Below are positions 31,925 through 43,837 of a stretch of 64,000 bases of DNA, in pieces; position 1 is the first letter of the stretch; each line of letters starts with the position of its first letter. The DNA comes from Flavobacteriales bacterium (lineage in GTDB: Bacteria > Bacteroidota > Bacteroidia > Flavobacteriales_F > PHOS-HE28). The notes beneath the pieces are model-generated. The model was not told where the DNA came from, searched no databases, and saw only the letters and a program-made list of their open reading frames with translations. Location: assembly GCA_019912395.1 (NCBI GenBank), contig JAIOIH010000014.1, forward strand, positions 142,800 to 206,799. Direction: 5' to 3'. Made by a program: the position numbers and the translations under genes.

Positions 31925-34429
31925 CTACGGTTCCACGGATGGCGCTTGCTTCCTGAGGTTGAAGGGCACTACCAGTTTGATGCTCACGTTGCGTCCCATG
32001 TTGTAGATGCCACTGCGCCCGGTCCCGTTCTCCGGATGGTCCTCGAAATACTTCAGACGGCTCATGTTGCTCTGGTAGCCCACATCGGCCAGGTTCGCCC
32101 CCCGCACGGTGAACGTCAATATCGTACGCCCTTTCCCGTCCAGCAGATCACCGCCCACACCCGCATCGAACAGGATGTACCCCGGCGTTCGCGTCTCCGT
32201 TCCGTGGGCGGAATAGTAGCGGTTCTGCGCCCAATACACCTGCATACCTGCCTTGATGAACAGCTGTGCGAAACAGCCCACCTGCTTTCTTAGATCATAA
32301 CGGAGTTCGCTCACGGTATGAAGGGGTGGGATCAATGGGAGGTACCGCGTGCTGTCGCCGATGAGCGCGCCGCCACCCCCCTTGTTCTCCGCCATGACCA
32401 ACGAAAGGGAATTCTCGAAATGGATCCGGTCGAAGGGATGCGGGTGGATGTCCAGGCTCACTTCACCTCCAAGGAGCCTCGCCCCGGTCTGCCGGAACTT
32501 GAATACGGGAAGGTCCTGTCCATCCTGCGTGTAGATCGAATCTCCTCCCAGCACGGACGCGAGCTTCTCATTGTAGATGTAGTTGTTGATGTAGTTGTTG
32601 AACAGCTCCACGCTGGCCGTAATGTGCGTGCCGTTATAGAAGAGCCCCAGATCCTCCTGCAGATTGAATTCCGGCTTGAGGTCGGCATCGCCCAATTGCA
32701 TCAGGCCCGCCCCGGGATGCACTCCTTGGGCAGTGGTCTCGGCCGCGCTGGGTGCCCGGTAGCCCCGACCCATGTTGACCTTCAGGGTCAAGCGATCGTT
32801 CAAATTCCATGCGGCACCGAGGCTGCCGCTCACACCCGAAAAGTCCTGTGCGTGCGGATCGAACTGCTTTGTCAGGGTGGAATCGGACGCATTCGCATCG
32901 GTGCTCATATCAAAGCCGGTTATCGGATCCGTGCGTGTGTACATGGCATCGCTCCTGAACTTCCGCATATCGTAGCGAACACCACCGGACAGATCAAGCT
33001 TTCCCACTGCCTTCTTCACGTGCAGGAACGGTCCGATATCCAAGTTGCGATAGCTCGGTATCAATAACTCCGTGCCCTTGGCAGCGTCGTTCCGCTGGTA
33101 CATGCCATTCAATCCCACCGTAGTGGACCATGCATTGCGCTCCGCCAAATTGTACTTCACGTCGTACGAGAACGTGTTCAGGGAGAGGTGCAGGCCCGGC
33201 AGCTCCGGATGTTGGGGATGGCTGTACTCCCGACGTATGCTGCGCTGGAAGCCGAGGTCGGTGGTGAGCCTGCTATTGCCGAGGTTGAAGCTTGCCGCGG
33301 CATAGGCCCGGTAGAATTGCACGTGTTGGTGCAAAGTGGCAATGTCGTACGAGTTCAGCACGCTGTTGCTTACGATGGGCCTCAGCGTGTCCGCCTCATC
33401 CACCTGGTAGGTGAACCGGCGCGAAGTACTGTCACGGCTTCCATCGGGAACCTCCTGCAGGTTGTCATAGATGCTGAATTTCAGGCGGGTGAAGCCCCAC
33501 GCCCGGTTAACGCCGAGGTACGCGTAGACGTTCTTCTCGTTATACTTGGTACCGTACACGCGTCCATCATAGCGATTGCGATAATTGCTGGCGAGCTTAC
33601 CGGAAAGCCGCCCTCCGTACATGAGCTTCCCATTGTTCCCGTCAACGTTCACGGAACCCGCCATGCCCTTGTTGTTGGTATCATAGTTCCCCAACACAGC
33701 ACCGCGCAATGTGCCCGTGGGCACCACCGGTGCCGGTAACAGGTTCACCACTCCGGCCAAGGCGTCCGAACCGTATATCAAACTGGCCGGTCCCTTCACC
33801 ACTTCCACCCGGTCGATGAGGAACTGGTCCACCTCCACACCATGCTCCTCGCCCCATTGTTGCCCTTCTTGGCGGATCCCGTCAAACAGGGTGAGCACCC
33901 GGTTCGCACCTAGTCCGCGGATATAGGGTTTGTAAATGTTCGGTCCGGTGCTCACCGCATTCAACCCGGGAACCGTGTTCAGTGTCGCGATGGCATTGGT
34001 GGAAGCATTTTCCCGAAGGAAGCTGCGCCCTACCATGGCCATCGGCACCGGCTCCCGCCTCATTTCAGTCGCCTTGGAGGTGCCTGTGATCACCACATCA
34101 TGCATCTCCGTCACGGATGGTGAGAGGACGAAATCGCGGGTGGACACCACGGCCAGGTCGATGGTCTCCGTGATCGCGGCATAGCCCACCATGCTCACAG
34201 TGACGAGGACTTTCGCGGCGGGAAGCCCTTGAACCACATACTCCCCGTTGCCATTGGCAACGGTACCGTTGCGAAGGTCCGGGAAATAGACCACGGCACC
34301 GGGTACGGACAACCCGCTTCCCTTTTCGGTGATCCTACCGGAAAGGGTGACCTTGGCTGGCTCCGGTTTTGCGGCGAACGCGGGCGAGGCCAAGAAGAGA
34401 ATGAGGATGAATACTGCCACTTGCTTCAT
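31925..34429 (-). CDS. TonB-dependent outer-membrane receptor
   Basis: 834 residues. The ATG at 34429 opens a signal peptide (MKQVAVFILILFLASPAFAA). A carboxypeptidase-regulatory-like domain (about 27-105, VTLSGRITEKGSGLSVPGAVVYF) precedes the plug (about 115-230, VVITGTSKATEMRREPVPMAMVG; GLGANRVLTLFDGIRQEGQQWG) and a 22-strand barrel ending SIKLVVPFNL with a short tail. Receptors of this type import metal complexes, siderophores, vitamins or glycans using TonB. The ligand is not evident. The small His/Cys-containing exported protein encoded just upstream on the same strand hints at metal. Confidence 0.92.
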   Translation of the reverse strand: MKQVAVFILILFLASPAFAAKPEPAKVTLSGRITEKGSGLSVPGAVVYFPDLRNGTVANGNGEYVVQGLPAAKVLVTVSMVGYAAITETIDLAVVSTRDFVLSPSVTEMHDVVITGTSKATEMRREPVPMAMVGRSFLRENASTNAIATLNTVPGLNAVSTGPNIYKPYIRGLGANRVLTLFDGIRQEGQQWGEEHGVEVDQFLIDRVEVVKGPASLIYGSDALAGVVNLLPAPVVPTGTLRGAVLGNYDTNNKGMAGSVNVDGNNGKLMYGGRLSGKLASNYRNRYDGRVYGTKYNEKNVYAYLGVNRAWGFTRLKFSIYDNLQEVPDGSRDSTSRRFTYQVDEADTLRPIVSNSVLNSYDIATLHQHVQFYRAYAAASFNLGNSRLTTDLGFQRSIRREYSHPQHPELPGLHLSLNTFSYDVKYNLAERNAWSTTVGLNGMYQRNDAAKGTELLIPSYRNLDIGPFLHVKKAVGKLDLSGGVRYDMRKFRSDAMYTRTDPITGFDMSTDANASDSTLTKQFDPHAQDFSGVSGSLGAAWNLNDRLTLKVNMGRGYRAPSAAETTAQGVHPGAGLMQLGDADLKPEFNLQEDLGLFYNGTHITASVELFNNYINNYIYNEKLASVLGGDSIYTQDGQDLPVFKFRQTGARLLGGEVSLDIHPHPFDRIHFENSLSLVMAENKGGGGALIGDSTRYLPLIPPLHTVSELRYDLRKQVGCFAQLFIKAGMQVYWAQNRYYSAHGTETRTPGYILFDAGVGGDLLDGKGRTILTFTVRGANLADVGYQSNMSRLKYFEDHPENGTGRSGIYNMGRNVSIKLVVPFNLRKQAPSVEP

Positions 34430-34603
34430 GTACCGGGATCGGACTTGTCGGCCCATGTTCCGAACTGTGCGTCCTTCAGCCTCCACTTCGGTGGATGCCG
34501 GAACGCCGATCGGTTTGACCGGACTTGGACGTGAAAGATGAACAGGCCGCTCGGTGCGGCCAGGGCGATGCAAGCACCGCCGGACCCGCGTTGTACGGGT
34601 TGA

Positions 34604-34921
34604 TCAGCTCACGGGCGGGCCGCGCAGTCGATGCTCTGCAACGAGCAATGAACCACGTAGGGGCGTGCCCAGCACATGGCGCATGGCGTTGCACAATGCG
34701 GCAGTCCGAACAGGTGGCTTCCGAAGTCCCTCATGGAGGGGTGCAGGAGCTTCACAGATGGGGCAGTGGAGATCCACATGCACCACCGTGGAGGCCCCAT
34801 GGGGATCGCTGACGAACGCGCCCTCCTCACAGTGGTGGAAGGCCGAGCGTGGCACCGCCATGAAGAGCATCACTGCAAGCAGCAGCCAGGCATTGTGGAT
34901 TCGGCGCGTGGATCGGCGCAT
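34604..34921 (-). CDS. small exported His/Cys-containing protein upstream of TonB receptor
   Basis: 105 residues from the ATG at 34921. That start is preferred over 34993 because a TACCTTCG box lies 5 nt upstream of it. An N-terminal hydrophobic segment (NAWLLLAVMLFMAVPRSAF) is followed by HHCEEG, VVHVDLHCPICEAP and a second hydrophobic or basic part. The His-His-Cys, His-x-Cys-x-x-Cys arrangement could bind a transition metal such as Zn or Cu. Small exported proteins with a similar layout often precede TonB receptors in Bacteroidota. I know no established function. It lies 174 nt before the receptor and is probably co-transcribed with it. Confidence 0.65.
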   Translation of the reverse strand: MRRSTRRIHNAWLLLAVMLFMAVPRSAFHHCEEGAFVSDPHGASTVVHVDLHCPICEAPAPLHEGLRKPPVRTAALCNAMRHVLGTPLRGSLLVAEHRLRGPPVS

Positions 34922-34985: not shown

Positions 34986-34997
34986 CCGAACATCTCG

Positions 34998-36469: not shown

Positions 36470-39367
36470 CTAGAACTTTACGATCCGGGTATGTGCCAGC
36501 GTTTTGCCTTGGGCATCCACAGCGAACACCACGTACGTGCCGGTTGCCAGCCCGGATACATCGACCTGCGTGCTGAAGAGCAGTTCCTCCACCAAACGGC
36601 CCGAGGGTTCATGGATGCGCAACACTCGTGCCGTCCCGGCATCGCATCGTACGTTGATGCGATCCCTTGACGGATTTGGCCATATGCTCATGCCTTGGCC
36701 GTCCACGGTGTTCTCGTCGATGCCGGCCATAACGTCCGATTGGCACGCATCCCCAACTCCGTCTTGATCGGTATCCGCTTGGTCCGGGTTGAACACCCAG
36801 ATGCAGTTGTCGCCGACGTCGCCAATGCCGTCCCCATCAAAATCCGCTTGGTCGGGGTTGTAAATGGAGACACAGTTATCCACGCAATCGGGGATGCCAT
36901 CATTGTCCTGGTCCGCATTGGCGATGACCCCGGTGTTGCCGCCGGAGCAGATCCCACAATCGTCCAGTGAGGCTGTCCCTCCCGAAACACCATTGCAATC
37001 CACTAATTCGCCGATGCACTGGCAGTTCGCGTTCCACGTGTCGTTGCCCGTGTTCGCGTTGCCGTCGTCGCAGGGCGTGCCCGGCATCGCAGGGCCGTTC
37101 GGGACACCGTTGCAATCGAGCGTGGCGGGCGTGCCCACGCACTGGCAGTTCGCGTCCAGCACGTCGTTGATCGTCGCCGCATTGCCGTCGTCGCAGGAGG
37201 TGCCGGGAAGTACCGTGCCGCCGGGGGTGCCCTCGCAGTCCAGTACTTGACCGATGCATTGGCAGTTCGCGTCCCAAGTGTCGTTGCCCGTGTTCGCGTT
37301 GCCGTCATTGCAGGGCGTGCCCGGCATCGCAAGGCCGTTCGGCACTCCGTTGCAATCGAGCGTGGCGGGCGTGCCCACGCACTGGCAGTTCGCGTCCAGC
37401 ACATCGTTGATCGTTGCCGCATTGCCGTCGTCGCAGGAAGAACCGATCTGTCCGGGAGCGTTCGGACAATTGTCCTGCACGTCGCAGATGCCATCGCCGT
37501 CACTATCCGGGCTTGGGGTGCCCACACATTCGCAGTTCGCGTTGAACACATCGTTCACCGTGCAGGCGTCACCATCATCGCAGGCGCTTCCCACCACAGC
37601 GCTTCCTCCCACCACGCCCATGCAATCCGCAGAGGGCGAGCCGGAAGCTGTTGCCTGGATCCCAAGGGAAAGATCGTAGAACCTACCGGTGTTCGTTGTC
37701 TGCAACTTCACCGCGCGTACCATGTACCGCTTTCCGCTTACGAACGGAACGGCGGGACTGCTGAAATTGGTTTGTGTGACCGGAGCTGGTGTCAGGCGCA
37801 CGAGATTGCCCGTACCCTGATTGATCTCGTAAACGTGGTAGCCGTCCACCGGACCCAAGCCCGCCGACCATGTGAATGAAGCCAATCCTCCGCTATTGCT
37901 CACCTGCAGGTTAGACGGCCGCGGCACCACTGTCATGCGCAGCGAAGGGTCACCCAGGAGTGTAAGGTGGACCCTGTTGTATGGTTGACCCTGCCATCCC
38001 CCGTTCTGCGGGGTGTACAGGTTGGTATTGTTCATGGTGACTTTGGCACTATAGCCGATGTTGTCACCCATACCCATATGTTGGAAATACCAATGCGGCA
38101 TTCCCGACCATACGCTTGTCAATCCATTTCCGCTAGCGATGGGTGCCCGCAGGAAATTGTTCACCACGTCCCAATCGCCGAAGTAGCTTCCCATCGACAT
38201 GTTGAACACACCTCCAAAGTTGATGGCCGCGTATTCGTCCGTGTTCCCCACGTTACTTGCGCTCACCCAGCTACCTCCGCCACTTGAATAGGTCCACAGG
38301 TAACTCTGGTTATTGATCAGATTTGAGAACGGTGTTCCTGTCGGGTTGCTATTCGTAAGGTTGGAAGCTCCTACAAGGGCTGCGATATTGCGATACGCGG
38401 AGCCTGCAAGGGGATTGGGCACGTCCCGGAAATTGTCGAACACGATCCCTCGGGTTTGGGGAACGAACTGCCGGGTCTTGTAGTTATGGGCCTTGATGAG
38501 GTAGCGGCGCGTCATTTCCGTTTCGTCATACGGAAATGCATACCAAGGAAGCCCCATGTTGGAGAAGTCAATGCGCCCGACCTGCAGTTCGAGATCGCTG
38601 GGATAATCGCTTTGATCGAATTTTCCATCCCCCGGTACGTTATGGTTCCGGTTTGATTGAGCGCTGGTGATGTTCACGGAGTTATCCGTCCAGGTCCCGT
38701 TCATCTCTCCGTAGTACCCGTCGCAAGGCCATGCGCCCAGGTGGTCACCATGTCCATCGGGGTTCAATCGACCTGAGTAGGGAACCGGCACATGGCCGAT
38801 GATGTACACGGCCTTCACCTGGGAAGGGTCCGCATTGAAATCCGCCTGCACGAGGGCGCGGATATTCTGGACGGAAGAGGAACGCGACACGTTATGCCGG
38901 ATCACGCCCCAGCCGTCATTCTCAAGGTCGGTGGTCAATTGGTCCAGTTCGGTCGTTAGTCCTCCCGCAATATCATTGTCCACCAATAGCACCATCACTC
39001 CGCGATCCTCCACGGGGGCCACATCAATGCCGGAAGCGATATAGCCGGTTCCGGTACCCCCTGCCGTACGGACCACCTTGTATTCGTAGTACACGCCCAC
39101 CGAAACATCGTTATCCACGAACTGATTGACAGAGCCCCCCAAGTTGGCCAGGGAACTGCCCCAGATCTGCTGGTCCTTCAGCTTCCGATACACTTTGTAA
39201 TTAGTGGCTGTTGCGTACGGACTCCAGGATATGGTGATGCGTGCTGGGTCATTCTGCACAATAGCCGACATCTGGACTGCTTCCGCCTCAGAGTAGGACT
39301 GAGCGAAGAGCCCGACGGGAAAAAGCAAAACCGAGAATGACAGGGAGAGGAGGAACTGTTTCAACAT
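36470..39367 (-). CDS. large T9SS-exported protein, gingipain-like region plus Cys/Asp-rich repeats
   Basis: 965 residues. Order: signal peptide (about 1-23), fibronectin-like segment (about 30-115), a region of about 400 residues resembling the C25 (gingipain) caspase fold ([36 protein letters not shown], a Ser/Gly-rich SSGGGSW strand), a second fibronectin-like domain, then Cys-rich repeats of [20 protein letters not shown] type, thrombospondin-type-3-like Ca-binding DxDxDG repeats, and a T9SS sorting domain (from [12 protein letters not shown]). The position where C25 peptidases have GHG reads SGGG, and where they have the nucleophile Cys the chain reads [10 protein letters not shown], so it is probably inactive. 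It is a paralog of the next gene. Likely a surface or matrix protein. Confidence 0.8.
37021..37440. repeat. 240-bp-period tandem duplication inside the repeat region
   Basis: 37021-37200 and 37261-37440 match at about 170 of 180 positions with an exact 240-nt offset, which is 80 codons, i.e. one pair of Cys-rich repeats. The identity is much higher than between other repeats of this gene or its paralog, pointing to a recent duplication or gene conversion. Confidence 0.85.
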
Positions 39368-39526: not shown

Positions 39527-42500
39527 TCACTCCCGAATGAACGGGGCACGCGCCATCGCTATACCCTGCTGATCTCGGATCACAAGGATGTAGGTGCCTG
39601 CAGCCAGGGAGGAAACGTTCAAGACCGTGCTGGACCGAGCGGTCAGGACCACCGCTCCTCCTAGATCATGAATGGTCATGGTGCGTGCACCAGACTCGAT
39701 GCCGTCAATAAACAGCAGGCCTCCGTTGGGGTTCGGGGAAATGCCGAGCCGGGATAAGGGCACCATCTCTCCGATTGATGCCGTACTGCATGCATCACCG
39801 ATCCCGTCTCCGGTTGAATCCACTTGCTCCGGATTGTAAACGAAGGGGCAATTGTCACAGGCATCGCCGACACCATCCTGATCGCTGTCCTCCTGCAGGG
39901 GATCGAACACGTCCGGACAATGATCATGGCAATCGAGCACGGCATCACCGTCCGCGTCCGGATCGGGAAGGATACCGGTGGTCCCTCCGGCACAGTGACC
40001 GCAGCCGTCCACGAACGCAGTGCCCCCGACCTGCCCAGCGCAGTCCAACAGGGTACCGATGCAGCTGCAGAACACGCTCCACGTGTCGTTTCCCGTCATC
40101 GGGTTCCCGTCATTGCAGGGCGTTCCGGGGAGCGCCGGGCCACCGGGCTGCAACAGGCAATCATAGGGTTCACCTTGGCAAGCGCAGTCGTTCCCCCATC
40201 GGTCATTGCCGGTGCTGATGTTCCCATCATCACAAGGGGTACCGGGCATCGCGGGTCCACCCGGTACGCCTGTACAGTCGATCGGAAGCCCCAGGCATTC
40301 GCAATCCTCCTGCCAGGTATCGTTTCCGGTATCGGGATCTCCATCGTCGCACGGAGTACCGGGAAGCACGATGCCTCCCGGAGTGCCTTCACAATCGATA
40401 ATGATGCCAATGCAGGTGCAATCGGTGGACCACGTGTCCATAGCTGTATTGGGGTCGCCGTCATCACAGGGCGATCCCGGTAAGGCCGTGCCTCCCGGAT
40501 CTCCTTCGCAATCCTCTATTTCACCTGTACAGATGCAATCCGTGGTCCAAGTGTCGTCGACCGTTTCCGGATCCCCATCGTCACAGGCCGTGCCCGGCAA
40601 CGCTGAACCTCCCACCACGCCGAGACAATCCGCGGGTGTACCCAGACAATCACACTCAACGGACCAGGTATCGTTGGTGGTCAGGGGATTGTAATCGTTG
40701 CAGGGCATCCCCGGTAGCACATCCCCTCCCGGTACGCCTTCACAGTCCACGAGATATCCGATGCACTCGCAATCAACCGTCCATGCATCCTCCATGGTGG
40801 CATTGTTCCCATCGTTGCAAATGGTGCCCGGCAGCGCCGGACCGCCGGGGACACCTTCACAATCCAAAACCTCCCCCACGCACGCACAATCCGCTGTCCA
40901 GGTATCGTTCCCCGTGGTATCCAGGCCATCGTCGCATGCCGTTCCGGGAAGTGCAGGTCCGCCCAATACCCCCATGCAATCGGTGATGTACCCGGCACAA
41001 GTACAGTCCGGTCCCCACATGTCTCCGTCGGTCCCTGGATCACCATCATCACATGGGGTACCGGGCATATCGGGACCGTTCGGTATTCCATTGCAATCCA
41101 GTGGAACGCCCATGCATTGGCAATTCGCATCAACCGTATCATCAACGGTTCCGGCCAATCCATCATCACAAGCTTCTCCGGGTTCGGGCATGCCGCATCC
41201 ACAATTTCCCGGTTCCACTTTGTTCGGATCATCGGGGCAACCGTCCTCCGCATCACAAGTACCATCGCCATCGCTGTCCTGCTGGATGCCCGCACACTGG
41301 CAATTCGCGTCCAGCACGTCGTTCACCGTGCAGGGTTCGCCATCGTCGCAAGGCGAACCGATCGCACCCGGAACCGTCGGACAATCGTCCAGCGCGTCAC
41401 AGATCCCGTCGTTGTCGCCGTCTCCCACGTAGCTGCCCACGCAGGCACAGTTCACGTCCAGCACATCATTGACCGTGCAGGGGTCGCCATCGTCGCAGGA
41501 CCAACCGGGCTCACCGTACAGGTCGGGGCAGCCGTCCTCCGCATCACAAATGCCATCGCCGTCGCCGTCCGGCAATGGAGTACCCCCGCATTCGCAATTG
41601 GAGTTCAACACGTCGTTCACTGTACAGGGATCACCATCATCGCAGAGCGTGCCGATCGTACCCGGAACCGTGGGACAGTCATCCAAGGCATCGCAGACCC
41701 CATCAGCATCGGCATCCCTGAAGATGCCTTGGCACTGGCAATTCCCGTTCACGACATCCCCGGTGGTGCAGGGGTCGCCGTCATTGCAGGAAGATCCGAT
41801 CTGGCCGGGAGTGAAGGGGCAGTTGTCCTGAGCATTGCAAATGCCGTCGCCATCACTGTCCTGGAACGTTCCGGTACACTGGCAGTTCACGTTCAGCACA
41901 TCATTGATGGTGCAGGGGTTGCCGTCATTGCAAGGGGAGCCCGCTTGGCCAGGTACACCCGGACAATTATCCTCGGCATCACAGGTCCCATCTCCATCGG
42001 AATCCAGGTAGGTGCCTTGGCACGTACAGGAAGCGTCCCACGTATCATTCACCGTGCAAGCACTGCCATCATCACACGGTGTACCTGTCAGGGCCGGTCC
42101 ACCGATGATCCCGAGACAATCAGTGACCTGAGTCCCTGCCACCGCTTGTCCATACGCCCCAAGACTGAGGTTGTAATAGCTTCCACTGGCCGTTTCCTCA
42201 AGCTTCAGCGCCCGCACCATGTACCGGATGGTGCCCCCGGCCCCGGAAAGAGTCTCCGTGAATGAAGTTCCCGTAACGGGCGTATTGGTTACACGCTGCC
42301 AGGTTTGTGTGCCCGGCACATAGCGGTACACATGATATCCCAAGACATTGTCCAACGCCCCGGACCATGTGATGGTCACATTGTTTCCGCTCACCGAACC
42401 CGCCACGTTGGAAGGGGGGCCTACCATGGACATGCGCAGTGTGGGATCGCCCATCAAGGCGATATGGACCTTGCCCGCACTCGGATTTGCCAGGGCGTAA

Positions 42501-43837
42501 TGCCCATTGCCGTTGTTCTGGGTAAGGCGTGTGGCAAAGCCGATGGTCTCGCCCATTGCCATATGGTGGAAGTACCAATTGGGGTAGCCCGCCCAAAAGC
42601 AGGTAAGAACGGTGCCACTGCCCAAGGCCGAACGCATGAGGTTGTCCTGGCAATCAAAATCACCGAATGAACTTCCGAAGAGCACTGTGAATACGCTCTT
42701 GACGTTCGTCGAGGCAAAGTCGCTGGAACTTCCCACGCCATTCGCATTATACCAATACCCTCCCCCACAACCATAGCTCCAGAGGTAGCTCTGGCTCGCC
42801 ATCGTGGAGAAGTAGTCGCGATCGAAAACGTTCGTAGGCCCTACGAGAGGTCCGAAACCCCGATAACCGTTCGATGCGAAAGCATCGCTCTGCCCTTGGA
42901 AATTATCATCCACCAGCCCTCGTACCACTGCCGTGAAAGCCCGCACTTTCCAGTTGTGCAACTTCGTCAAGTAGTTGCCCATCATTGTCGTCTCGCTCTG
43001 TGAAAAAACGGGGAGGTTCGCGAAATCAACCCTCCCTACCGCCAATTCCACGCTACTGGGAATGGTGCTTTGGTCATACTTGCCATCCCCTGGCACGTTG
43101 TGGTTTCGCGGATCCTCTGCATAGGTGACGCTGGCCTGGTTGTCCGACCACGCACCGTCCATATCACCGTAGAAGACATCGGCGCTCCATGCACCCTGAT
43201 GCTCCCAGTGCCCGTCCGGGGCCATGTTCCCGGAATAGGGCACAGGCACATGACCAACAAGAAAAACCATTTTCGTGTTCGCCGGATCGGCATTGTAGTC
43301 GTTGACGATAATGCTCTTGATACTGGGCACGCTGGCGTTCCGGCTTACATCGTGTCGAAGCACGGTCCATCCATCCGCCTCCATGTCCTGTTGCAACTGC
43401 CCCAATTGTGCGGAAAGCGGACCGGTAAAAAGATCATCCACCAGCAGGATCACCTTTCCGCGGGACTCCACCATCGGCACTTGAATGCCCGCATTGATGT
43501 AAGAATAACCAGTGCCCAGGTTGGCCGTGGACCGAACGATCTTGTATTCATAGGAAACCTGAAGGGAAACGTTGTTGTCCACCCAGGAAAGCGCATTGCC
43601 ATCCAGCGTCGCCACCGGACTACCCCAACTCGTCCCCCCTTTTACCTTGCGCCATATCTGGTATCCGGTGACATTATTCAGACCGAGCCAGCCGAGGGTG
43701 ATCCGCGGTGGGGATGCCTGCACTTGGGCGGAGGCTTGCACGCTCGCCTCGTATGCCTGCCCTTGCAGCACGACCGCAGTAAGGGAAAGCCAGACGAACA
43801 GGCCCCAAGGAAGCAGCTTACGCACCTGTTTCTCCAT
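39527..43837 (-). CDS. giant T9SS-exported paralog with two long Cys-rich repeat arrays
   Basis: 1436 residues, same architecture as the 965-residue neighbour: signal peptide (about 1-28), fibronectin-like segment, degenerate gingipain-like region ([47 protein letters not shown]), second fibronectin-like domain (about 505-600), then about seven 48-residue repeats carrying DSDGDG Ca-type loops plus CNDG...NDVL...NCQC, nine 39-residue repeats of DC.G.PGG.ALPGT.CDDG...ND.W...C.C.G type, two thrombospondin-type-3-like repeats and a T9SS sorting domain ending IAMARAPFIRE. As in the paralog, the catalytic His and Cys of C25 are not conserved. It should be exported to the cell surface; calcium and disulfides probably stiffen the stalk. 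Confidence 0.8.
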   Translation of the reverse strand: MEKQVRKLLPWGLFVWLSLTAVVLQGQAYEASVQASAQVQASPPRITLGWLGLNNVTGYQIWRKVKGGTSWGSPVATLDGNALSWVDNNVSLQVSYEYKIVRSTANLGTGYSYINAGIQVPMVESRGKVILLVDDLFTGPLSAQLGQLQQDMEADGWTVLRHDVSRNASVPSIKSIIVNDYNADPANTKMVFLVGHVPVPYSGNMAPDGHWEHQGAWSADVFYGDMDGAWSDNQASVTYAEDPRNHNVPGDGKYDQSTIPSSVELAVGRVDFANLPVFSQSETTMMGNYLTKLHNWKVRAFTAVVRGLVDDNFQGQSDAFASNGYRGFGPLVGPTNVFDRDYFSTMASQSYLWSYGCGGGYWYNANGVGSSSDFASTNVKSVFTVLFGSSFGDFDCQDNLMRSALGSGTVLTCFWAGYPNWYFHHMAMGETIGFATRLTQNNGNGHYALANPSAGKVHIALMGDPTLRMSMVGPPSNVAGSVSGNNVTITWSGALDNVLGYHVYRYVPGTQTWQRVTNTPVTGTSFTETLSGAGGTIRYMVRALKLEETASGSYYNLSLGAYGQAVAGTQVTDCLGIIGGPALTGTPCDDGSACTVNDTWDASCTCQGTYLDSDGDGTCDAEDNCPGVPGQAGSPCNDGNPCTINDVLNVNCQCTGTFQDSDGDGICNAQDNCPFTPGQIGSSCNDGDPCTTGDVVNGNCQCQGIFRDADADGVCDALDDCPTVPGTIGTLCDDGDPCTVNDVLNSNCECGGTPLPDGDGDGICDAEDGCPDLYGEPGWSCDDGDPCTVNDVLDVNCACVGSYVGDGDNDGICDALDDCPTVPGAIGSPCDDGEPCTVNDVLDANCQCAGIQQDSDGDGTCDAEDGCPDDPNKVEPGNCGCGMPEPGEACDDGLAGTVDDTVDANCQCMGVPLDCNGIPNGPDMPGTPCDDGDPGTDGDMWGPDCTCAGYITDCMGVLGGPALPGTACDDGLDTTGNDTWTADCACVGEVLDCEGVPGGPALPGTICNDGNNATMEDAWTVDCECIGYLVDCEGVPGGDVLPGMPCNDYNPLTTNDTWSVECDCLGTPADCLGVVGGSALPGTACDDGDPETVDDTWTTDCICTGEIEDCEGDPGGTALPGSPCDDGDPNTAMDTWSTDCTCIGIIIDCEGTPGGIVLPGTPCDDGDPDTGNDTWQEDCECLGLPIDCTGVPGGPAMPGTPCDDGNISTGNDRWGNDCACQGEPYDCLLQPGGPALPGTPCNDGNPMTGNDTWSVFCSCIGTLLDCAGQVGGTAFVDGCGHCAGGTTGILPDPDADGDAVLDCHDHCPDVFDPLQEDSDQDGVGDACDNCPFVYNPEQVDSTGDGIGDACSTASIGEMVPLSRLGISPNPNGGLLFIDGIESGARTMTIHDLGGAVVLTARSSTVLNVSSLAAGTYILVIRDQQGIAMARAPFIRE
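40048..41100. repeat. nine tandem 117-bp coding repeats (39 residues each)
   Basis: Nine successive units, each with two Cys-rich halves (DC.G.PGG.ALPGT.C and CDDG.. with a closing C.C.G), read on the minus strand inside the 1436-residue protein. 9 x 117 bp equals the 1053-bp span. Unit length is constant while sequence diverges, so copy number can change without a frame shift. Confidence 0.75.
41250..42010. repeat. about six tandem 144-bp coding repeats (48 residues each)
   Basis: Units start with DSDGDGTCDAEDNCP-like Ca-binding loops and continue with CNDGNPCTINDVLNVNCQC-like cores. Most are 48 residues, one 49. They precede the 39-residue array in the protein and share its Cys-rich core, so one array may derive from the other by gain or loss of the Asp loop. 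Confidence 0.7.

Follow-up and report, generated by a model that had tools for sequence, protein, structure and literature searches.

A leader ORF of the arrest-peptide type, probably zinc-sensing, precedes a ZnuD-like TonB-dependent receptor gene in a Flavobacteriales bacterium

Introduction

The closest described relative of the locus studied here is CruR (bp2923) of Bordetella pertussis, a DUF2946 protein encoded by a small exported-type ORF that heads the operon of the TonB receptor BfrG/CrtA (Roy et al., PMC9426467). According to this report, CruR carries a CXXC motif, then 45 residues, then a RAPP motif three residues from its end; expression depends on RAPP and the control by copper on CXXC, and lengthening the spacer by five residues spoils the response, whereas one or two additional residues do not. 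CutF of Rhodobacter capsulatus is described as an exported protein that acts as a sensor while nascent; it has a Cys site (CxxxC) and a C-terminal proline motif and controls the next gene, downstream expression being raised by copper (PMC9973294). Among the 5,334 CutF-like proteins surveyed in the same report, Bacteroidota account for 40% when normalised and 19% otherwise, TonB-like proteins are among the frequent neighbours, and copper is suggested for the clusters, with nickel or cobalt for some of them.

More generally, arrest peptides of the RAPP/RGPP type are small secreted proteins that share the C-terminal motif and the position upstream of TonB receptors, and are reported to be universal in Gram-negative bacteria (PMC12992588, PMC10987492). 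In vitro, translation arrest has been shown for CruR and for seven RAPP/RGPP proteins of Streptomyces, and RAPP/RGPP ORFs lie upstream of TonB receptors across Gram-negative bacteria (PMC12992588). The presence of R(A/G)PP does not by itself guarantee arrest: most of 23 tested RAPP-like sequences of E. coli and B. subtilis failed to arrest efficiently (PMC10987492). In an artificial setting, the folding of a zinc finger on the ribosome abolishes SecM arrest, with a half-maximal effect near 1 uM zinc (PMC4571824).

We analysed a 64,000-nt stretch of DNA from a Flavobacteriales bacterium (contig JAIOIH010000014.1, hereafter the window), in which a small exported-type ORF likewise heads a TonB receptor gene. 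The window leader has RGPP and a spacing of 43 residues (43-46 in the class scan below), where CruR has RAPP and 45, and the intergenic gap is long in both cases, 174 nt in the window and 162 nt for CruR (PMC9426467). CruR is copper-responsive and Rho-dependent by experiment, whereas the window case is known from its sequence and has a ZnuD-like receptor and, among its relatives, zinc-linked neighbours. It resembles CutF in its general layout and differs from it in the Cys motif and in the reported effect of copper (PMC9973294). We consider it reasonably probable that this leader acts in cis and, as a nascent chain, senses a metal, probably zinc, arresting its own ribosome and controlling the ZnuD-like receptor gene.

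Results

The leader ORF and its homologues in the same genus

The leader ORF and its parts are as follows.

34604-34921, minus strand: leader ORF (uORF), 105 codons and stop, gene 1 of a two-gene unit
34853-34891, minus strand: putative hydrophobic signal or anchor stretch AWLLLAVMLFMAV, leader residues 11-23, from sequence reading and alignment
34829-34852, minus strand: PRSAFHHC motif, leader residues 24-31; P24, H29 and C31 do not vary among 14 aligned sequences from the same genus
34754-34765, minus strand: CPIC (CxxC) with an acidic residue next to it, proposed metal site; C53 and C56 invariant in the 14 sequences
34625-34753, minus strand: 43-residue linker, fixed in length and diverged in sequence, from the homologue alignment, spacing counts and information content
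34613-34624, minus strand: RGPP, arrest-type motif of the class described in PMC12992588, leader residues 100-103, 2 residues from the stop

The ORF starts with an ATG at 34921 and its stop codon occupies 34604-34606. From the N-terminus, we observe a positively charged start, the hydrophobic stretch, PRSAFHHCEEG, HCPICEAP and a C-terminal RGPPVS-stop, with HHCEEG at residues 29-34 and DLHCPIC at residues 50-56. The preliminary description had reported these two motifs in a 105-residue protein encoded ahead of a TonB receptor on the same strand, which we confirm; it mentioned neither the C-terminal RGPP nor the fixed 43-residue distance between CxxC and RGPP. With R(A/G)PP close to its C-terminus, the leader resembles the RAPP/RGPP peptides in the position of the motif. 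Searches of Pfam and NCBIfam with the window leader return no family at E <=1, so that in Pfam DUF2946 (PF11162), the family of CruR, is not matched either, and the window's own genome contains a single copy of the leader (E <=0.001). A 129-residue version from the in-frame ATG at 34993 is possible but disfavoured; the starts of the homologues vary.

The window leader is a genuine, non-chance ORF: a protein-similarity search of 39 close genomes finds matches at 19 places in 16 genomes, its own included. The complete design is present in 13 of these 19 loci (12 with RGPP, 1 with RAPP), the remaining six being L022, an altered copy in which the motif reads RGPG at an unchanged distance, and five matches that are broken or spurious. 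All 13 complete loci have a TonB receptor directly downstream, with 25-100% identity to the window receptor, so that the gene pair, whose conservation the preliminary description had proposed to check, is indeed conserved; the pattern used for this count had the spacing fixed at 43. The spacing was then measured freely in 16 homologous ORFs found by protein similarity rather than by motif. CxxC and R(G/A)PP are both present in 13 of the 16 and are separated by exactly 43 residues in all 13, L022 again having RGPG at 43 and L030 and L035 missing the motifs. Residues P24, H29, C31, C53, C56, R100 and P102 are invariant in the 14 aligned same-genus sequences. Conservation thus sits at P..H.C, at CxxC and at the C-terminal R(G/A)PP, which is followed by 2-5 residues, with a diverged linker in between. 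In L022 (G019:C78, 2438-3076), the frame runs past RLRGP into a match to the last 100 residues of the receptor only, a fusion that is a deletion or a misassembly.

Spacing across the class and the phylum

We scanned 149 genomes of the class with the pattern TGYNNNNNNTGYGA-gap-MGNGSNCCNCC, corresponding to CxxC[DE] and R[AG]PP, and let the gap take any of 31 lengths. Sets found by pattern necessarily carry CxxC[DE] and R[AG]PP, so that only spacing, frame and neighbours are free in them. Out of 78 matches, 52 fall at 43, 44 or 45 codons (21, 18 and 13, respectively), and the other 28 lengths together hold 26, at most 4 each. The frame is open through R[AG]PP in 49 of the 78, and these 49 all lie at 43-46 codons (19, 18, 11 and 1, respectively). 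A scan of 392 genomes of the phylum, over a narrower gap range, gives 17, 17 and 20 of 96 matches at 43, 44 and 45 codons (54/96), with at most 8 at other lengths. Named Flavobacterium loci, found by protein similarity, show a spacing of 45 in 27/27 cases, one of them being F. johnsoniae strain CI04.

For the analysis of neighbouring genes, 48 leaders from 43 genomes were kept from the class scan; the 30 matches dropped had closed frames or lay out of frame, apart from L089, which reads SAPP, and L038, which has 41 residues after RAPP. The phylum draw, whose genomes overlap with those of the class draw, contributed 47 of 96 matches that were new at 43-45 codons, from which 36 were taken by eye as coding-looking and 11 left out, and 34 of the 36 were kept (L168 and L169 dropped). 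The resulting set of 82 leaders (48 + 34) was chosen for a spacing of 43-46, so the spacing within it is no test. RAPP occurs in 48 and RGPP in 34 of these leaders, 2-14 residues before the stop (2-5 in 73/82). In their alignment, two His residues N-terminal of CxxC reach 90% conservation or more, and the linker of the kept leaders carries a mean of only 0.2-0.5 bits per position.

Genes downstream of the leaders

The architecture is conserved across Bacteroidota, and the leaders stand before receptor genes or zinc-linked genes. In the window, the leader and the receptor form the whole unit, because the genes past the receptor, purE/purK-like ORFs named by eye, lie on the opposite strand. We took as downstream gene the longest ORF starting within 800-900 nt; for 2 of the 82 leaders, none occurs before the contig end. 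A receptor starts within 900 nt in 36 of the 48 kept loci versus 1 of the 30 other matches of the same class scan, and a Plug domain is found in 35/46 and 24/34 of the downstream genes scanned in the two draws. The leader ORFs thus share the position of CruR, each opening a same-strand unit ahead of a gene for a TonB receptor or a metal gene.

A CobW/COG0523 GTPase replaces the receptor at five loci of three genera (L046, L049, L136, L164 and L165). The best NCBIfam model for the GTPase of L046, the one scanned against NCBIfam, is the zinc metallochaperone ZigA, with 540 bits and thus below the cut-off of 600; its identity with the other four GTPases is 55-80%, and another relative is encoded in the receptor operon of L162. 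At L118, L124 and L125 (three genomes, two genera), the leader heads the gene for a protein of about 380 residues, along with genes for a ZnuA-family binding protein and for an ABC-3 permease; the ZnuA and ABC-3 genes are confirmed by Pfam in the first two loci and are 77% and 71% identical in the third. Manganese can also be the cargo of ZnuA-type proteins. No copper family appears among the Pfam families listed for the genes directly downstream (13/13 and 25/26); for genes further downstream, 25 of 85 families were listed, so copper families are possible there.

Several further observations concern these operons. A protein of about 380 residues directly follows the leader at L042, L104, L105 and L106, before ZnuAB in three of them, the contig ending in the fourth; neither Pfam nor NCBIfam has a match for those of L042 and L104, and the protein is a candidate for a new zinc outer-membrane component. 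DUF4625 occurs in six downstream proteins, followed by a receptor in L121, and may be metal-related; a literature search for DUF4625 with zinc gave no paper on DUF4625 among the matches listed. At L195, L183 and L121 (Flavobacterium or the same family), the leader heads genes for DUF4625 proteins, a TonB receptor and a presumed lipoprotein of 400 residues, which is rich in His and Asp near its N-terminus in L183 and L121. Pairs of closely spaced leader ORFs, one per gene on one contig, are found at L116 and L117 (G120) and at L142 (G504), like gene-specific sensors; the second leader ORF at L116 is L038 (G120:C45), a leader-like CxxC-43-RAPP sequence excluded from the counts. Prolyl oligopeptidase (S9) accounts for five of the 77 later leader-operon genes scanned.

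The receptor resembles ZnuD

The receptor gene and the residues that align with metal ligands of ZnuD are as follows.

31925-34429, minus strand: ZnuD-like TonB-dependent receptor, 834 aa, from Pfam and a profile match to ZnuD
33842-33847, minus strand: plug residues E195-H196 of the receptor, at the place of ZnuD D99-H100 in the alignment; acid in 24/24 and His in 24/24 receptors
32717-32719, minus strand: receptor H571, aligned with ZnuD H499; His in 22/24 receptors

The ORF extends from 31925 to 34573, with a plausible ATG at 34429, and its product matches Plug (PF07715) and barrel (PF00593) over the Pfam cut-off, CarboxypepD_reg being found as well. A profile built from 24 selected leader-linked receptors has Neisseria ZnuD as its best match among solved structures (E 1.5e-53, 185 bits), followed more weakly by the heme receptor PhuR (4.7e-33) and the copper receptor OprC (5.6e-19). 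The zinc ligands described for ZnuD are Asp99, His100, Glu340 and His499 (PMC4557270); we took the chain index as mature numbering + 14, with which all four residue types fit. D99, H100 and H499 align with a conserved acid, His and His. E340 has no exactly aligned Glu, the invariant E401 of the receptor (24/24) lying five residues off. PhuR has Thr rather than an acid before the aligned plug His. Among the matches listed, 24 Flavobacterium receptors contain WGADHGLEI, which resembles the ZnuD-type plug site.

The window receptor differs from ZnuD in the inexact E340 position, in its additional N-terminal CarboxypepD_reg domain and in scoring 71.8 bits against the ZnuD model of NCBIfam (NF038289), far below the cut-off of 950. 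The top NCBIfam match is TonB-hemin TIGR01785, also below its cut-off (175.5 versus 316.85 bits), and H196 and H571 may fit heme receptors of the same fold too. AlphaFold2 prediction from the window receptor and 14 Flavobacterium receptors gave a mean pLDDT of 30.1 and was unusable, so the zinc-site assignment comes from the alignment. From the likeness to ZnuD, the ligand of the receptor, which the preliminary description had left open, is probably zinc. The window's own genome, 99% complete, has one FUR-family gene and no match to the ZnuA family, which leaves zinc passage through the inner membrane unexplained.

The intergenic RNA

34430-34603, minus strand: intergenic leader RNA, 174 nt, from a fold calculation
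34545-34561, minus strand: terminator-like hairpin GGCCGCACCGAGCGGCC then TGTTCATCTT, a consensus match; 2 in the region versus 0.6 expected

Signals in the RNA are weak or modest. The fold of a 261-nt stretch, comprising the gap and both flanks, is predicted to be more stable than those of shuffled sequences (z -2.2, 5 of 200 shuffles being as good). Terminator-like hairpins are found in the gap at 13 of 80 loci, versus 4.6 in shuffles (sd 1.9, maximum 9). In a model with start codons picked by rule of thumb, occupation of the stall site would free the downstream start region more than in shuffles, with a mean excess of 0.037 (s.e. 0.010) and 43 of 68 loci positive. These loci are related and hence not independent. 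Alignment of four same-genus gaps (51% mean column identity, many gaps) gave no conserved hairpin that we would claim. A sigma-70-type promoter scan found no site; Bacteroidota promoters differ from the sigma-70 type. Inspection by eye around the window promoter showed no convincing Zur box.

Discussion

The window leader is very probably a cis-acting arrest leader, and it is quite likely that the metal is zinc. We infer the arrest, the identity of the metal and the direction of control, with stalling under low metal and release upon binding proposed by analogy with CruR, the RAPP/RGPP peptides and the zinc-finger/SecM fusions. At low zinc, the ribosome would stall at RGPP and would thereby block the folding of a start-blocking or terminator hairpin, or exclude Rho, allowing the receptor to be made. 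With enough zinc present, the Cys/His site, already outside the exit tunnel by that point, would bind zinc and fold, and the pull of this folding would free the arrested ribosome, such that translation is completed and receptor expression drops. The released leader peptide would then be exported and degraded. The CruR/CutF layout of an arrest leader would also account for leaders standing before ZigA-like GTPase and ZnuAB genes, besides receptors. For Bacteroidota as a whole, we see a slightly better than even chance that zinc-sensing arrest leaders with a Cys/His site 43-45 residues from R(A/G)PP occur phylum-wide and control zinc uptake, by way of ZnuD-like receptors, ZnuAB and ZigA-like GTPases, through the nascent chain.

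The same device could sense copper, with the receptor importing copper. This would follow the example of CruR, whose CXXC-45-RAPP arrangement precedes a copper-responsive TonB receptor with little effect of zinc (PMC9426467), and weak matches to DUF2946 in 19 of the 82 leaders at E <=0.1 (best 2.4e-8) and, in NCBIfam, to the copper-linked LpqS in 4 of the 82 (best E 0.0048) point in the same direction. We nevertheless find a copper sensor unlikely, given that the receptors fit ZnuD far better than OprC, that the families listed for the directly downstream genes include none for copper, that ZigA-like and ZnuAB genes are neighbours and that Bacteroidota are reported to be without Cu-related uORFs (PMC12992588). 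Heme or another metal complex, as ligand of a receptor controlled by the proposed arrest leader, seems very improbable: the acid before the plug His in 24/24 receptors is as in ZnuD and not as in PhuR, and the ZnuAB and ZigA-like neighbours also speak against it, even if TIGR01785 is the top NCBIfam match, below cut-off, and HasR is described as clamping heme by two facing His at the corresponding places (PMC4557270).

Two other readings give the leader a different role. The preliminary description took it for a metal-handling accessory of the receptor, that is, an exported Cys/His protein passing metal to the receptor in trans. The metal theme and the conserved linkage stand, and the hydrophobic N-terminus, the richness in Cys and His and the receptor linkage in 13/13 complete same-genus loci would suit such a carrier; a separate exported accessory is nevertheless not the best reading of a protein with an arrest-leader layout, and we give it very little credence, since it is hard to see what a mature carrier would gain from a diverged linker of fixed length and from R(G/A)PP near the stop, and since GTPase genes are also preceded by such ORFs. 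That the arrest leader responds to protein export or to thiol redox state and not to metal, in the manner of SecM or of a CxxC disulphide sensor, is highly doubtful with neighbours that are mostly TonB receptors and metal-linked genes and with the two conserved His before CxxC. Nevertheless, a localization signal together with RGPP is also the layout of an export monitor (PMC10987492), and such ORFs are reported upstream of thioredoxin-domain genes (PMC12992588).

This kind of leader is already known, and what appears to be new is the assignment to zinc, the exact Bacteroidota ruler and the linkage to ZnuD, ZigA and ZnuAB. In the available text of the RAPP/RGPP reports, neither an individual Bacteroidota leader of the window type nor a CxxC ruler nor a connection with zinc is named (PMC12992588, PMC10987492), and the word 'zinc' is absent from the main texts of PMC9426467, PMC9973294 and PMC12992588, the first of which reports the small Zn effect on BfrG. 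Among the matches listed in the open-access literature, we found no zinc-responsive arrest peptide, also when looking for Bacteroidota or DUF2946 members. The bacterial zinc sensors known are mainly transcription factors such as Zur. If the proposed zinc-responsive arrest is true, the arrest-peptide class would, within the literature searched, gain its first member that responds to zinc, and Zur would have a counterpart or replacement at the post-transcriptional level. Cells would then use the zinc-released arrest physics seen in artificial zinc-finger/SecM fusions (PMC4571824), a sizeable group of TonB receptors from Bacteroidota would have a suggested ligand, and small unnamed proteins encoded upstream of them would be recast as regulators.

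Elsewhere in the window, positions 36470-39367 and 39527-43837 encode adjacent large proteins with many Cys-rich repeats, and the protein at 36470-39367 shows sub-threshold matches to thrombospondin type 3 and to a Por secretion tail.
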